A stretch of DNA of 64,000 nucleotides from Sugiyamaella lignohabitans (lineage: Eukaryota; Ascomycota; Dipodascomycetes; Dipodascales; Trichomonascaceae): the NCBI RefSeq assembly GCF_001640025.1, contig NC_031671.1:2709602-2773601 (forward strand), given 5' to 3'. The position numbers and the translations under genes are program-made. Below are positions 7,511 through 64,000 of the stretch, piece by piece. How positions within the stretch are numbered: the stretch's first letter is position 1; every line of letters starts with the position of its first letter. The notes under the pieces are model-generated. The model saw nothing but the letters and a program-made list of their open reading frames with translations. It was not told the origin of the DNA and ran no database searches.

Positions 7511-8189
7511 GTTTACTGATCTAAAAATAATCCCGGGATTTTTGGTTACACTGCCGGTAAATTAGACAAAGTGCGAAGGAAATGATTCCAAATTATTTCG
7601 CTGGGTATCTAACGAACGTGCAAGATGTACAAAAGTGGGTTGAAAACCAGCTTCAACTCCTGTTTCACTTGTCTTGTGTCGAGACTCAAAAATAGGGGGA
7701 AAATGCCTTTAGGGATCATGTAGCATATTTATATTTGGAACATTATGCTTAAAAACCTCGTCCGTACCAAAAGAGACGTCTCGGAATGCATGCTTCTGTA
7801 CTGACGCCGACCCCGATCATTCCCGCATACAGCGGTTCCCCCTATTCGAATATGCAGATTCCGTGGGTTGTAGACTCCAAAACATCATGTCCGCTCCAAT
7901 GGAATAGACTCTAATACCCGATTTTTGATTCTCAGCCTCAGCTGCCGATTAATATGCTATTAATATGCTACTTTTCATCCGAAAAATAGAATTTTTCAAA
8001 AATAGCCTTACCAGAACTAGTCGTCCGTCAAATAGCAACAACTAGTCCACTTTGGGACCTATCTGAACATAAAACGTTGGACGATTGCCGAAACTAGCAG
8101 CTGTATTGCTTTTTCCGACGATAAGCGAGATCTGTAGATATGGATCGATGCCTTGCCTGCATATTCACCACCATGGGCTTTTTTGTCCC

Positions 8190-8208
8190 TATATATATAT
8201 ATATATAC
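8190..8208. repeat. (TA)n microsatellite
   Basis: An uninterrupted alternation of T and A over about 17-19 bases in the AIM21-GAS spacer. Confidence 0.9.
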
Positions 8209-8243
8209 TCTGTCTCCTGACCCCTTATAATATGGGTGTGTTT

Positions 8244-8308
8244 CTGCCTCCGGCGGCTGGGGCGCTGCCCCAGACCCCGTTGTGCTCCGCTTCGCGGAGC
8301 GGCTCGGA
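8244..8308. repeat. GC-rich element, copy 5 (half element)
   Basis: CTGCCTCCGGCGGCTGGGGC, GCTGCCCCAGACCCC, then the perfect hairpin GCTCCGC-TTC-GCGGAGC (8284-8300). The stem sequence differs from the other copies but stays fully paired. No second arm. Confidence 0.8.
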
Positions 8309-8831
8309 TTTTGGGGGGATTTTTTTTTCGAAAAACCTATGAATATTGTGTGATTATTTGATGGGTCGGCGTTAGTGGGCGTCAGCTGGCTTGTCTTCGT
8401 CAGAGATAAATCATGGCTAAATAAAATTTAAAGACCTCACATTGAGTTCATGTGGGCTGTGTAAGTGTGTATTGTGTGTATCTGAACCCATCTGTTCGAT
8501 CGCCGCTGCTATGAGCACATTAACCGCCTGTCAGAACCCCCCTGAATATCACTTGCTAAATTACTGTTCTCGGAGTATTAGCGAATATCGCCCTGCTCGA
8601 GGCGAGAAATTTATCACCGGAAGATCTCGACCGTGTAGGGTGATCTTTTCAACCAATCTATTCTATGTCTTATGTAGTATGCCGAACAATATTTATTCAT
8701 TTAGTTTATGACGTCAGGGATCTACGCATGTCTGGATCCAAACTTGCCTATCACTCACTGTCTGATATTCAGGACTCAATCTCAGTTGCAGTTGCTGCTG
8801 AACTATTCGAAGATGCGAGTGTCGATACAAA

Positions 8832-14892: not shown

Positions 14893-16503
14893 TCATGGAA
14901 ACATACCATACAAATTTTTGTGAACATAAATGTTACAAATAGAAAGACCGGTAGTAGCTGGATAACACAGAGGAACGTGATAATCGCCATAGTCAGGATT
15001 TACAGAAGCAAATTGCCAGCGCGAGTTCGAGGCAGTTTCATCTCCATTCAACAACCGAGTCTGCTCCCAGTCTCCATCGACATAGCGTCCTTCCTCAACA
15101 GACATGATCTCAACACGATGGTCAGTACTGGAAGAGAACTGAACGGTATAACCATATCCAATACCTACGAACTTGTTATCACTGGTTTGCATGATCAGTC
15201 CAAAGCCAGATTGAGGTTTACCATAACTGTGTATACGGTCGATATGGGCTGTTATATTGCCAAACGAATGTACTAAGGGTCTGGACACAGCACGGTCATC
15301 GAAATGGAACCCAAAAATTTTATTCTTGGCTTGAGCCTCGAGGATCTGAGAGGAAACCTGTTTCAGAAGACCAAAGTGAGTCTTGTAGAGAGCGCTCTCC
15401 TCCCATACACTATCAATGCCGAAGGGAGACACGCCAATTGCTTTGCATTTGCCATAGGCGTAGAACACCCGCTCTGCAGCATAATAATCACGTCTTGTTT
15501 CAGGAATCAAGAGCGGATTTCCTCCATGACGATAAGCATCGCAAAACTCTTCAAATTCGTCTGCGTAGATATCTGGACTGTACATATCGATATGGGATGT
15601 AGCAGCATTATAAATATCCATAGTATGTGGCAAAACCCCACCACTAGGATATTGATTAGGTCGCTTCCAAACCTTACTTGGCAACGAGTCGGCAATATTC
15701 AATGCCACATTGATAAAGAGAGGAATTGGATAGACCTTCTTGCCAGCAGCTGCTACACGGTCGATATATTTAGCATAGTACCAGGACATGAAAAGCTCCT
15801 CGGTGTTTTCACCCCTACCAAAGACACTTTCCCAAGACCCAGACTCAGACACTTTGGGGAATCGAGTCTTAAACTGTTGTGCCAATTGCGCTGTTTCCAA
15901 ATGAGATAGAAGTTCCTTAGGGACATTCTCCTTATAGAGCTTATTGGAGATATCAGATCTGTCACGAGAATCCCACAAGACACCAGATTCATTTTCAACC
16001 TGGACCATGATAACTGTATTGTCCTTGTCAGTGGCCTCTAGGTGTCCCATAAGACGCTGGAATGCCTTGGCATCTGCCTCCACATTGTTCTCATGAAACA
16101 CAGACAATGTCTTGGTCGTAGTCAAATAACCATCTTTCCAAATAACGGACCGAGGAAATCTTTCGGGATTTTGTTTAACCCATGTAGGTACATAGGCTGA
16201 TTCACCGTTCTTGAAAGACCCAAACCAAAGCAATCCGATATGGAATCCATGGCTTCTGACGCTTTCAATAACACCATCCAAGAGATTGAAGTTAAAAGTC
16301 CCTTCCTCCGGTTCAATATGCTCCCATGAGACAGGCAAGAAAATTGTGTTGATGCTATATTCAACGAGGCGGGGTAAAACCGACTGCAGAAACTTGACAT
16401 TAGAGGCTGTCGAGTTGTGCAATTCAGCTCCTAGGACAAGAAATGGCTTGTCCTGAACATACAATTGACTAGTGTCACCAACTTTCTTAAGATGGGGATG
16501 CAT
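14893..16503 (-). CDS. GH35 beta-galactosidase-like enzyme (DUF5597 type), copy A
   Basis: Predicted to release terminal beta-linked galactose from an oligosaccharide. The 536-residue protein has a TIM-barrel start (INTIFLPVSWEHIEPEEGTF), the acid/base Glu in IMVQVENESGV, the nucleophile Glu in LLIPETRRD, and a C-terminal beta domain (GFGLIMQ..., LLNGDETAS) as in the DUF5597 GH35 enzymes known mainly from bacteria and filamentous fungi. There is no signal peptide, so it should act in the cytosol on imported sugar. It is divergent from and paralogous to the gene at 16865, sharing about 360 bp of promoter, and sits beside a sugar porter and a zinc-cluster regulator. The gene is intronless. Enzyme family is firm; substrate (lactose, galactosyl-xyloside, other) is unknown. 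Confidence 0.85.
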   Translation of the reverse strand: MHPHLKKVGDTSQLYVQDKPFLVLGAELHNSTASNVKFLQSVLPRLVEYSINTIFLPVSWEHIEPEEGTFNFNLLDGVIESVRSHGFHIGLLWFGSFKNGESAYVPTWVKQNPERFPRSVIWKDGYLTTTKTLSVFHENNVEADAKAFQRLMGHLEATDKDNTVIMVQVENESGVLWDSRDRSDISNKLYKENVPKELLSHLETAQLAQQFKTRFPKVSESGSWESVFGRGENTEELFMSWYYAKYIDRVAAAGKKVYPIPLFINVALNIADSLPSKVWKRPNQYPSGGVLPHTMDIYNAATSHIDMYSPDIYADEFEEFCDAYRHGGNPLLIPETRRDYYAAERVFYAYGKCKAIGVSPFGIDSVWEESALYKTHFGLLKQVSSQILEAQAKNKIFGFHFDDRAVSRPLVHSFGNITAHIDRIHSYGKPQSGFGLIMQTSDNKFVGIGYGYTVQFSSSTDHRVEIMSVEEGRYVDGDWEQTRLLNGDETASNSRWQFASVNPDYGDYHVPLCYPATTGLSICNIYVHKNLYGMFP

Positions 16504-16864
16504 TGTTAAGTATCCACCGAATTGTTGAATGATGCTTCTTGTTAATGAAGAACCAGGGCTTATTTATATTCTTCAAAAGATATGACCCGGCCCTGCATTG
16601 ATGTACAGGTCGTTGAATGTGGGGTGCATAATGCACACTGAGGGGCACGCTGGTCATAACCCCCACGCGCTAAACTCGCAGCATCGGCTTTGACGCCCTT
16701 TAACTGGCTAGTTAATCTAAGATCCACGTCTGCAGATCAGACTATCAATTCTTATCTAATTACCGGGCGGATGTTTCCTAAGTATAGAAATGATTTATAT
16801 CGGACCTTCGAACACTTATCAATGGATAAAATAAGGAGTGGTCCTATTGATTTCTAATCTCAAT
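16504..16864. promoter_or_regulatory. Shared divergent promoter of the two GH35 genes
   Basis: A 361-bp spacer between divergent starts. It contains an inverted repeat GTGCAT-A-ATGCAC (16624-16636), GC-rich blocks (CCCCACGCGC, TACCGGGCGG) and TATA-like TTATAT at about 16795. An ATG at 16822 would start an 11-codon out-of-frame uORF for the rightward gene if transcripts begin upstream of it. The arrangement would allow co-induction of both glycosidases. Confidence 0.55.
16624..16636. promoter_or_regulatory. Palindrome GTGCAT-A-ATGCAC
   Basis: A perfect 6-bp inverted repeat around one base, in the middle of the shared GH35 promoter. It is a candidate operator for a dimeric factor; no known factor is assigned. 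Confidence 0.4.
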
Positions 16865-18547
16865 ATGAAGCTTACAAACTATTTATACAGTTCGGTATAT
16901 CCGAATTCACAAGAACAACCAGCAATGATTGAAATTAGAAACAGATTACTCTATATTAACAATTCACCATTTGTCGTGCGCGGTGGAGAGCTTCAGAACT
17001 CGTCAATGAGTTCTGCTGCTCATATGCGGCCAATTTGGAAAAGTCTAAGTGATTCCAATTTGAATACTGTTTTAGGCGCTGTCACCTGGGAACAAATTGA
17101 ACCTGAGGAGGGCAATTTTGATTTCAAAGAACTAGATGCCTGCATTAGAGATGCAAGAGCTGCTGGGTTGAAGTTGGTGCTTCTTTGGTTTGGTGCTTTT
17201 AAAAACGGCATGTCCTCATATGCTCCGAGCTGGGTCAAATCAAACCCTCACCGCTTCCCACGGGTTGTAGTTAAAAGGCCCGACGGAAAACTGAGGTTCA
17301 CTGAAGTTTTATCAATCTTAAGTGGTGATGAAACCAAAGATGCTGACTCTATTGCCTTTGCAAAACTCATGTCTCATATACGTCGGATTGACGAAAAGCA
17401 CTGCACTGTGATTATGGTCCAATGTGAAAATGAAGTTGGACTACTTTCAGATAGCATTGATCGTTCGTCAATGGCTGAGGAACAATTTCAATCTGCTGTT
17501 CCCGAAGATTTGTTAAACTTTCTTAGAGAGGACTGGAATTCTTTGCATCCACTATTCAAGGAGAAGTTTTCCAAACCCAGTGTGACTAGTAATGGGGGTA
17601 ACTGGGAGCAGGTCTTCGGAGAATCACCATTCACAAACGAATTATTTATGGCCTACCACTATGCGAAGTACGTAGACCATGTAGCATTGTCCGGTAGAAA
17701 GGAATATAATATTCCTATTTACACCAATGTTTGGCAGAACCAGTATGGCAAACAGGGTGCAGCAGCAGGTGGTGGTAAACCTGGAGAGTATCCTAGCGGT
17801 GGTGCTATTGGCGGTGTACTCGATATTTGGATGCGATTTGCTCCTACATTGGATTTTATTTCCCCTGACATTTACGTCAATGACTATGATGAAAGATGTC
17901 AATGGTACTCCCACAAGAACCAACCACTTTTCATTCCCGAGCAAAGAAGAGATGAATATGGAGCTAGAAGAATGTGGAGAGCCATTGGAGAATATAAAGC
18001 CATTGGAGCTTGTCCTTTTGGCATTGACAGTCTAGAATATGATACCTGGAAGAAACATTATAAGTTGCTTAAGGAGGTTGAACCTCTGTTAATTGATGCA
18101 TATAAAAATGATCATCCAATGACGGGATTCTTTTTCGACGAGTTTAATTCTAAGGCACCGGCAGATGTCATTCACCACAATTTCCCTAAGTATCGCGTCA
18201 CTATTGAAAGGTCTCGTGTATTCGGGGTGCCAGATGTGGGCTATGGAATAATTATAAATTATAGTCCTGATTCCTTCGTGCTAGTAGGTACAGGATTCCA
18301 GGTCACCCTTACCGCTGCAGATAACCAACTACAAGCTGGAATTGCTAAGGTACAAGAGATTTATTTTGAAAACGAAAATCTAAGAACTCTCAGATGGATG
18401 AATGGAGATGAAACTCAGTCGGGTGCTTGTATTATGATGCCAAGTGAAAAAATCGACTATGGCGACTTTCCAGTTGCTATCTCAATTCCTGCCGGATCTA
18501 AAATGGCCATAGCTCACGCTTACACCATTCCATCTTATGAAGGTTGA
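16865..18547 (+). CDS. GH35 beta-galactosidase-like enzyme (DUF5597 type), copy B
   Basis: Paralog of copy A with the same layout: VTWEQIEPEEGNF, LLWFGAFKNGMSS, acid/base Glu in IMVQCENEVGL, nucleophile Glu in LFIPEQRRD, and the C-terminal domain with GYGIIINYSPDSF and MNGDETQSG. From the ATG at 16865 it is 560 residues; the ATG at 16925 (MIEIRNRLLYI) would give 540, closer to copy A (536), and alignment of LYINNSPFVV with LYVQDKPFLV makes that start equally credible. No signal peptide, so cytosolic. Copy B has a Gly/Ala-rich insertion (QGAAAGGGKPGEYP) where copy A has a shorter loop. The two copies are clearly diverged, so the duplication is not recent or they were acquired separately. Confidence 0.85.
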   Translation: MKLTNYLYSSVYPNSQEQPAMIEIRNRLLYINNSPFVVRGGELQNSSMSSAAHMRPIWKSLSDSNLNTVLGAVTWEQIEPEEGNFDFKELDACIRDARAAGLKLVLLWFGAFKNGMSSYAPSWVKSNPHRFPRVVVKRPDGKLRFTEVLSILSGDETKDADSIAFAKLMSHIRRIDEKHCTVIMVQCENEVGLLSDSIDRSSMAEEQFQSAVPEDLLNFLREDWNSLHPLFKEKFSKPSVTSNGGNWEQVFGESPFTNELFMAYHYAKYVDHVALSGRKEYNIPIYTNVWQNQYGKQGAAAGGGKPGEYPSGGAIGGVLDIWMRFAPTLDFISPDIYVNDYDERCQWYSHKNQPLFIPEQRRDEYGARRMWRAIGEYKAIGACPFGIDSLEYDTWKKHYKLLKEVEPLLIDAYKNDHPMTGFFFDEFNSKAPADVIHHNFPKYRVTIERSRVFGVPDVGYGIIINYSPDSFVLVGTGFQVTLTAADNQLQAGIAKVQEIYFENENLRTLRWMNGDETQSGACIMMPSEKIDYGDFPVAISIPAGSKMAIAHAYTIPSYEG

Positions 18548-62514: not shown

Positions 62515-62597
62515 CGCTGTATAGATTGCTTATACTTAGACATGCATGGCTTAATCTTTGAGACAAGCATATGACTACTGGCAGGATCAACCAGATA
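62515..62597 (-). rRNA. 5' end of 18S rRNA, truncated (about 83 nt)
   Basis: Reading the minus strand from 62597 gives TATCTGGTTGATCCTGCCAG, then TAGTCATATGCTTGTCTCAA, AGATTAAGCCATGCATGTCT and AAGTATAAGCAATCTATACA. This is the universal 5' start of eukaryotic SSU rRNA. Similarity ends after ACAGCG (62515), where AAACTGCGAATGGC would be expected. So only helices at the very 5' end are present and this copy cannot make an 18S rRNA. Transcription would run leftwards toward PRP31; the external spacer lies to the right. Confidence 0.93.
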
Positions 62598-62607
62598 ACT
62601 ATCTTTA

Positions 62608-62659
62608 TAGTCCTTAAAAAATAAGGACTAAAAAGAGTAAAGATCGTGAGATCTTTACT
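62608..62659. other. Two adjacent perfect hairpins upstream of 18S
   Basis: TAGTCCTTA-AAAAA-TAAGGACTA (62608-62630, 9-bp stem) and AGTAAAGATC-GTGA-GATCTTTACT (62636-62659, 10-bp stem). Both are within 65 nt of the 18S 5' end and would fold in the pre-rRNA 5' ETS. Confidence 0.75.
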
Positions 62660-63353
62660 GAAGTTAGTTAAAGGTTAAGAAATCAAAATACTAAAGCATC
62701 TTGAATTCTACAGAAATTCTAATAGTACTGTTTTAAGGTACTATCAAATTTGTCTGCATCCATATAGCCTTCTTTGAATTCCTCAGTTAATTTCCGAATA
62801 AGTAGATTATAGTAAATAATACCATAAAAACTTTTCATCATTAACTTGAGAGGAGGTTACCATAAACAAATCACAGCTTTTTTCAAAACCGGCTATTTGT
62901 CCAGGCAGGCCCTAACTCCATCCCGCTGTTGGCAATCCACGTAACAACTAGGCTTCAGACACAAATACAGTCAAAAAGGCAGATGCCTAGAGGCAAGGCG
63001 AAGCGCTCGAAGACAGGATCGCAATAGCAGGTAGCGATTATGGTAGGTGTTCGGCGTAAGAGATATTGGTCGATGGGGTGATTAGAGGAGCATGTGGTAT
63101 TTAGTTGGGGACATAGTGGAGTTGGTGGTTTCTTGGTAGTTGAATAGGAAGTCAGGGGTATAGAAGAGCAATATAGCGCACGCAGATGAACATGCATACG
63201 TACAGTGGTAGGTTTTCACAGTCATTTCAGGTAGGTGTTCAGAGTATTTTCAAAGTTGATTTGATGTTTGCATGAGTGTAGTTGTTCGGATAGGGTTCAT
63301 GGAATAGTTGGGTTTAGATGACATAGGAGTGCAGTGCAGTGTAACAGTGGATG

Positions 63354-63386
63354 TAGGATAGGATATAGGATATAGGATATATAGGG
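63354..63386. repeat. ATATAGG microrepeat
   Basis: Short tandem units GGATATA/GGATAT repeated about four times in the rDNA spacer. Confidence 0.75.
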
Positions 63387-63429
63387 AGAGAATAGGTTGT
63401 GTATAGCAGTTGGGAGAATAGGGTTAGGA

Positions 63430-63604
63430 AATCTAACGCTCTTTAACATTCTTAACATTTTGCGAAGCAAAATGACGCTCTTATAACAATATTTAGGCGA
63501 AGCCTGAATATTGTAAGTCGAAAATTTCGAAGAAATTTTCGCTCTAAGTAGCGTTAACGCTCTTAAAACAAATTTTTGGCGAAGCCTAAAATTTGTAGTA
63601 GGGA
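63430..63604. repeat. Four-hairpin spacer module, copy A
   Basis: Four consecutive stem-loops, each with loop GAA on the plus strand: CATTTTGC/GCAAAATG (63456-63474, 8 bp); ACAATATTTAGGC/GCCTGAATATTGT (63486-63514, 13 positions with one T-G wobble); CGAAAATTTC/GAAATTTTCG (63519-63541, 10 bp); ACAAATTTTTGGC/GCCTAAAATTTGT (63568-63596, 13 positions with one T-T mismatch). Between them runs the recurring phrase ACGCTCTTA. Confidence 0.9.
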
Positions 63605-63698
63605 TATCAATAGTAACAGAAGGAATTTTAAAAGAAGAGTAACAGTAAGAAAGGGATCTTAAAGGGTAACGGAATCAGCGGAATTCGTATAGTAAGAG

Positions 63699-63756
63699 TT
63701 GGGAGTTGGAGTTGGGAGTTGGAGTTGGGAGTTGGAGTTGGGAGTTGGAGTTGGGA
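63699..63756 (+). repeat. 13-bp G-rich minisatellite
   Basis: About 4.5 tandem copies of TTGGGAGTTGGAG in the rDNA spacer, lying between the two hairpin modules. Alternating GGG and GG runs on the plus strand could form two-layer G-quadruplexes. Confidence 0.9.
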
Positions 63757-63760
63757 TACT

Positions 63761-63945
63761 AGGGTTAGGATATTAACAACGCTCTTAAACATTCTTAACA
63801 TTTTGCGAAGCAAAATGACGCTCTTATAACAATATCTAGGCGAAGCCTAGATATTGTAAGTAGAAAATTTCGAAGAAATTTTCGCTCTACTAGCGTTAAC
63901 GCTCTTAAAACAAATTTTAGGCGAAGCCTAAAATTTGTAGTAGGG
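63761..63945. repeat. Four-hairpin spacer module, copy B
   Basis: Same order as copy A, about 342 bp to the right: hairpins at 63799-63817 (8 bp), 63829-63857 (13 bp, perfect), 63863-63883 (9 bp) and 63910-63938 (13 bp, perfect), all with GAA loops. Relative to copy A, the second stem has a C-G pair where A has T-G, and the fourth an A-T pair where A has a T-T mismatch. Both modules are preceded by GGGTTAGGA. Confidence 0.9.
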
Positions 63946-64000
63946 ACGTAGAAGGTAACAGAAGGAAGGGATCTTAAGGGTAACAGAAAGGAAAGGGATA

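Follow-up and report, generated by a model that had tools for sequence, protein, structure and literature searches.

The right end of contig C3

The window, that is, the whole 64-kb stretch of Sugiyamaella lignohabitans DNA under study, is the right end of contig C3, and the contig stops at 64000. Its last gene is a PRP31, whose matches, among the best 120 of 1093, include Geotrichum candidum (52% identity) and Trichomonascus ciferrii (54%). Beyond 62282 no reading frame of at least 200 codons is present in the window, and the C3 right end therefore carries no Y'-type gene. Farther inside (14893-18547), two adjacent divergent reading frames specify similar proteins that resemble glycoside hydrolases, presumably of family 35. 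The features toward the contig end are collected in Table 1.

Table 1. Features of the C3 right end, in window coordinates
Feature	Position	Strand	Remark
18S rRNA gene, first 81 nt, truncated	62517..62597	-	100% identical to C2 rDNA; 18S start via Rfam match on L037
rDNA upstream of 18S (5' external spacer side), 315 nt	62598..62912	-	rest of the 396-bp, 100%-identical block
Segment ~76% similar to rDNA spacer further upstream	62936..63016	+	relatives at the other six module-bearing ends
X-like subtelomeric region	63027..63430	+	common to 7/7 module-bearing ends
AGGGTTAGG	63420..63428	+	directly inside module copy 1
Module copy 1 (proximal)	63435..63603	+
Hairpin 1, copy 1	63456..63474	+	GCGAAGC tip
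Hairpin 2, copy 1	63486..63514	+	GCGAAGC tip, one T.G pair
Hairpin 3, copy 1	63520..63540	+	C-GAA-G tip
Hairpin 4, copy 1	63568..63596	+	GCGAAGC tip, one T.T mismatch
Variable purine-rich linker, degenerate repeated pieces	63604..63695	+	short direct repeats
Perfect 13-bp tandem tract, 4.7 x GAGTTGGGAGTTG	63696..63756	+	G-rich strand toward chromosome end; candidate interstitial telomeric tract
AGGGTTAGG	63761..63769	+	directly inside module copy 2
Module copy 2 (distal type)	63778..63945	+	including flanks, equals C1 right copy b over 242 alignment columns
Hairpin 1, copy 2	63799..63817	+
Hairpin 2, copy 2	63829..63857	+	perfect
Hairpin 3, copy 2	63863..63883	+
Hairpin 4, copy 2	63910..63938	+	perfect
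Next degenerate repeat stretch begins	63942..64000	+	25-bp period, 2.2 copies; C3 end at 64000

The dominant feature of this region is a module of 168-169 bp that occurs twice within the final 566 bases of the window, the second copy being offset by 343 bp and then by 342 bp from the first (63435-63603 vs 63778-63945). The copies are 96% identical over the first 112 nt and 91% identical across a 77-nt stretch from 63549. Both contain four hairpins in the same order (H1, 8 bp; H2, 13 bp; H3, 9-10 bp; H4, 13 bp), each of them closed by a triloop, as had been described in the sequence-only reading, which placed two copies about 342 bp apart with four stem-loops each; that description is confirmed. 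Its further statement that every loop is GAA is true of the window (8/8) but not of the genome, where, among the ten copies presented below, one has a TTA and two have a TTT loop in H3. The stem 4 difference between the copies (T.T versus A-T) was read correctly; the stem 2 difference, given as T-G versus C-G, actually involves two pairs: at pair 8, T-A of copy 1 is replaced by C-G in copy 2, and at pair 9, T.G by T-A.

The 64-kb window contains six perfect triloop stems of 8 bp or longer, and every one of them has a GAA loop and lies inside the two module copies. Against this stands a background, obtained from 20 first-order Markov sequences of the window, of 1.05 such stems on average and 0.1 with a GAA or TTC loop. 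Likewise, the number of GAA stems of at least 6 bp expected in 63430-63945 is 0.004, with a maximum of 1 in 2000 simulations. Compared with shuffled sequences, copy 1 folds as DNA with z = -7.7 on the outward strand and z = -6.1 on the other, the fold energies being -38.5 and -36.0; the better fold of the outward strand is due to the T.G pair and not to the loops. GAA and TTC tips have equal energy in the model used (-5.7 for H1 and -5.1 for H3, on both strands), and the model alone therefore shows no strand preference. The hairpins are thereby confirmed as real and non-random.

No Rfam family exceeds its gathering score in the window, and plasmid and phage records hold no relative of module copy 1 at E 0.01. 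Among viral contigs, an exact 17-mer is matched in one stretch (L065), by rough estimate no more than chance would give, and an exact 21-mer pattern finds no match. Among the titles and abstract openings listed in a literature search, none describes the element.

Distribution over the chromosome ends and relation to rDNA

The genome examined comprises four contigs (C1-C4; 15,932,016 bases), and excerpts of PMC5499181 give four chromosomes and 16.0 Mb for S. lignohabitans CBS 10342. A DNA search of this genome with a 211-base query retrieves ten copies of the module at seven of the eight contig ends, all pointing outward, together with one short internal fragment. Single copies are found at C1 left, C2 left, C3 left, C4 left, and C4 right, two at C3 right, and three at C1 right. 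With ten copies at seven chromosome ends, the module is more than the simple local duplication to which the two copies of the window might have been reduced. Short patterns give the same picture: the H1 core has ten exact genome matches and the H3 stem, with any loop allowed, occurs at ten places, all of them at contig ends, while 14 of the 15 matches to TNGGCGAAGCCNAA are at ends; the reversed control gives 0 in each of the three cases. The sequence around a match to TNGGCGAAGCCNAA at C2:4633176 looks unrelated, and we do not count it as a relative of the module. AGGGTTAGG, which presumably has a weak likeness to a Tbf1 site, stands ahead of all ten module copies.

The internal fragment (C3:238296-238351, plus about 40 bp beyond) has a match that starts within the loop of hairpin 4. 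It adjoins a minisatellite of GTGAACGGGCATGTCA-like units and is perhaps a chromosome end captured at a break.

The eighth end, C2 right, is an rDNA array with units of about 8.62 kb, in which the genome DNA search finds no module. The array stops at base 4,950,000, and such an exact figure makes it probable that C2 right is not a chromosome end. Between C2:4895000 and 4950000, rDNA with long N gaps fills all three stretches examined, the gap being 5000 bases where it is seen whole. The module is absent from the readable rDNA spacer (L037 214-2201, within 30 kb of C2 rDNA, L037-L039), the rest of the unit being masked by the 5000-N runs; by our estimate, the masked part perhaps includes about 0.9 kb of spacer beside the 25S gene. 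A short dispersed repeat lies on the inner side of the rDNA (L039 1816-1909, C2:4896815-4896908) and has several matches, in both orientations, in L015 (C4 right) between 930 and 3662.

Pieces of rDNA are nevertheless present at the module-bearing ends. Besides the scrap in the window (62517-62912), C4 right holds 168 bases of the same 18S-side sequence at 97.6%. The start of the X-like region occurs twice there (L015, ~8078-8480), and the inner one continues into these 168 bp. A second stretch of rDNA spacer has counterparts at all seven ends. At the four left ends and at C4 right these measure 195-210 bases (74-77%), and C1 right has two pieces of 98 and 78 bp (79 and 82%). A shorter counterpart, of 94-98 bases (76-78%), occurs in C3 right, where it covers 94 bp at 76%, and at another place in C4 right. 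These scraps and spacer-like segments indicate that the ends and the rDNA have exchanged sequence. In what can be read of the rDNA unit, the module itself is missing. Its earlier designation as an rDNA-spacer module is therefore not supported, since it sits at seven of eight contig ends and is absent from the readable spacer, and since the rDNA of the window amounts to a 396-bp scrap, 100% identical to the array; an origin in the rDNA spacer was rejected, no module being found in the C2 rDNA as far as it can be read. Yarrowia lipolytica likewise has rDNA sequence at chromosome ends, according to excerpts of PMC5499181 and PMC4022394; the difference is that here the array is at C2 right only, with scraps at C3 right and C4 right.

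Tandem units and the telomere

At two ends the modules are arranged in tandem with a unit of about 340 bp (spacing 337-343), the three copies of C1 right being spaced by 341 and 337 bp. Each spacer between tandem copies combines purine-rich sequence of degenerate character with a perfect G-rich tract of 13-bp units and with AGGGTTAGG; periods of 25-27 bp were also detected at 63942-63999 and in C1 right. The perfect 13-bp tract is present in all three tandem spacers with its G-rich strand outward, and the 13-mer that we weighed as a candidate telomeric repeat is GGAGTTGGGAGTT. A 14-mer of the tract has nine genome matches, seven of them at ends. The backward pattern also matches five times, so that the word itself is not rare and what is noteworthy is the perfect tandem tract in each spacer. 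The 13-bp tracts may be interstitial telomere remnants. They are unlike the printed repeats of relatives, namely TAGAACGGG in Trichomonascus vanleenenianus (excerpt of PMC13130702) and TTNNNNAGGG in the Yarrowia clade (excerpt of PMC6746865).

The two internal 14-mer matches were considered as possible telomerase RNA loci, and neither yielded a credible candidate. The one at C2:1016071 lies inside a 751-codon open frame. That at C1:624554 belongs to a C-rich minisatellite, through which open frames of 108 and 129 codons run, and we make no claim for it; none of three Sm-like patterns occurs on either strand of this 3-kb locus. The minisatellite, which is probably noncoding, contains two 13-mer units and lies about 26 kb from the telomerase gene. 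The gene for the telomerase reverse transcriptase is present, as judged by a 1068-codon open frame that matches the telomerase RNA-binding domain with E 5.4e-34, and this match makes chromosome ends maintained without telomerase unlikely.

At none of the seven module-bearing ends does the assembly contain a terminal telomeric repeat, and the term subtelomeric thus rests on the position of the module at contig ends. The contigs stop at a nearly constant distance past the last module, 48-55 nt at six of the seven ends and 17 nt at the remaining one; when stops were placed at random in a 340-bp unit, none of 200,000 draws put six of seven within 8 bp. Either a real boundary, the unassembled telomere, comes next, or the assembler always fails at this point.

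Proposed spreading of the module and significance of its hairpins

Over 242 alignment columns, no difference separates C1 right b from C3 right b, and a single one separates C1 right c from them. The inner copies are more distant from this distal type, C1 right a by 22-23 columns and C3 right a by 38-39. The single copies of the other five ends are 15-43 columns apart (15-34 if the shortened C2 left copy is set aside), and these mutual differences imply that the module is real at each end. Judged from the sequences, the combination of identical outer and divergent inner copies would be a sign of recombinational spreading, or else of one consensus placed twice by the assembler. Across the seven inner copies, the module shows 3.2% substitutions and 0.9% gaps, and the tail 24% and 20%; the X-like region (63038-63396) diverges between ends by 7.1% substitutions and 6.6% gaps. 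On average, no part of the last 600 bp is better conserved than the module, although the X-like region has some 40-base bins with equal or smaller values (0.9% and 1.4%).

Based on the above data, we consider it likely that the module is the outermost part, as assembled, of a subtelomeric repeat that recombination has carried from one end to another, and that its hairpins are, most likely, a by-product. The module would have been spread and homogenised by ectopic recombination among chromosome ends, through break-induced or rolling-circle copying, and the copying of one variant outward onto several ends would yield the identical distal copies. The hairpins would at most promote fork stalling, breakage, or recombination at the end. 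One hint of this is the internal fragment at C3:238296, a single case, whose match begins in the loop of hairpin 4.

By analogy, such spreading would work as it does for the TelKO and Y' elements, in a yeast that possesses telomerase. Excerpts of PMC12408736 describe TelKO of Naumovozyma castellii as an element of 220 or 445 bp, which in ALT cells forms arrays with a 325-bp unit, composed of the element and a telomeric tract and identical on different ends. The likeness lies in a short subtelomeric element, which in N. castellii stands just inside the telomere, and in arrays with a unit of 325 bp as compared with 337-343 here, one variant being present on all ends in the ALT cells (excerpts of PMC12408736). 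The difference, taken from the same excerpts, is that TelKO arrays arise in telomerase-negative cells and that 7 of 18 wild-type ends lack TelKO, the two elements being likened here by description; the main text of that paper contains neither "hairpin" nor "palindrom-" (PMC12408736). Tandem units and one variant shared by different chromosomes, both of which characterise TelKO and Y', are found here in C1 right and C3 right as assembled. In Saccharomyces cerevisiae, X is present at all 32 ends and Y' at 17 (excerpt of PMC11042809), and remnant TTAGGG sites occur in both (excerpt of PMC6410037). Here, WTTTAYRTTTW is absent from the outward strand over the terminal 1.2 kb of all seven module-bearing ends. 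Tandem Y' copies are separated by telomeric tracts, and we know of no four-hairpin module in the S. cerevisiae X and Y' elements.

An alternative is that selection acts on the hairpins as DNA structures. Placed on the outward strand, from which resection makes the 3' overhang, GCGAAGC hairpins could withstand nucleases, cause forks to stall, or prime fold-back, and in this way might help to protect eroded ends or to seed them anew. The heptamer d(GCGAAGC), known from oligonucleotide work, is the tip of H1, H2, and H4, and excerpts of PMC4686876 report that its mini-hairpins melt at 78 C, are nuclease-resistant, and shield 3' ends from exonuclease; among the titles listed in a literature search, none concerns a natural use at chromosome ends. 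These tips are kept in all ten copies, within a module whose average conservation is the highest of the last 600 bp, and stem columns vary less than the other module columns (5/86 vs 14/87; Fisher p = 0.05, neighbouring columns being non-independent). H2 and H4 of one module are paralogues with a 5' flank in common at 10 of 11 letters; they differ at two pairs, or three with the distal H2, and each time both sides have changed and pairing is kept, the comparison being made with the A-T form of H4 (5/10 copies; the remaining copies have the T.T mismatch). Template-switching correction of imperfect palindromes would also yield compensated pairs.

Several observations weigh against such selection. 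Both-sided changes across the ten copies affect one of 43 pairs, which is matched by 253 of 500 shuffles, and we therefore do not accept covariation between copies as proof of structure; over the ten copies no covariation beyond chance is detected, since 54 of 500 shuffles attain the covariation score. Pairing is absent at pair 8 of H2 in two of the ten copies, at pair 10 of H4 in five, and at pair 1 of H4 in one, and all four hairpins are perfect only in C1 right b and C3 right b. The H3 loop departs from GAA in three of ten copies, the fold advantage of the outward strand comes from the T.G pair instead of the loops, and parts of the X-like region are equally conserved in 40-base bins. Moreover, the S. 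cerevisiae X and Y' elements can be deleted with little effect (excerpt of PMC11042809). The earlier suggestion that structure is maintained is thus weak. In its favour are the compensated H2/H4 differences, in the A-T form of H4; against it are the insignificant covariation among the ten copies and the three pairs broken in some of them: the structure is real and its selection unproved. We regard selected DNA hairpins as unlikely. That ultra-stable mini-hairpins on the 3' overhang strand might serve as a built-in backup cap or recombination seed once the telomere is worn is a proposal to which we give little credence; it is suggested by the heat and nuclease resistance of GCGAAGC (excerpts of PMC4686876) and by the strand and place of the heptamers.

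Other origins and roles were weighed against recombinational spreading of a subtelomeric repeat. The AT-rich module, with its repeated linkers and GC-tipped palindromes, looks, we presume, like the GC clusters or hairpin elements of fungal mitochondria, and 8 of 19 CGCTCT on the plus strand of the window fall in its two copies; yet no analysis here directly supports an insertion of mitochondrial DNA at one end followed by spreading, which we hold to be rather improbable. A function of the hairpins in a subtelomeric, TERRA-like RNA would agree with the RNA fold of copy 1 (z = -6.8 outward, -4.7 on the other strand) but not with the insignificant covariation and with the failure of every Rfam family to pass its gathering score in the window, and is very unlikely. 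Assembly artefacts could explain the tandem and the identical distal copies, given contigs that end in the repeat, the occurrence of these copies on two contigs, and rDNA padded with 5000-N gaps; the single copies at five further ends, 15-43 columns apart, show the module itself to be real at each end. We hold this explanation to be highly improbable. The chance that the module is an rDNA-spacer element after all is slighter still: an rDNA scrap with the 18S start does end about 520 bp inside the module, and another spacer stretch is related to a segment at all seven ends (74-82%), but the module is missing from the readable spacer, of which about 0.9 kb may lie under a 5000-N gap, and is carried by seven ends that have no rDNA array.

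These results lead us to re-read the C3 end as an rDNA scrap plus a subtelomere instead of an rDNA spacer. If the hairpins matter, natural chromosome ends would use a DNA motif that is mainly familiar from oligonucleotide chemistry. If the proposed spreading is true, the assembly would show arrays of end repeats resembling those that ALT survivors of N. castellii carry, in a yeast only distantly related to Saccharomyces.
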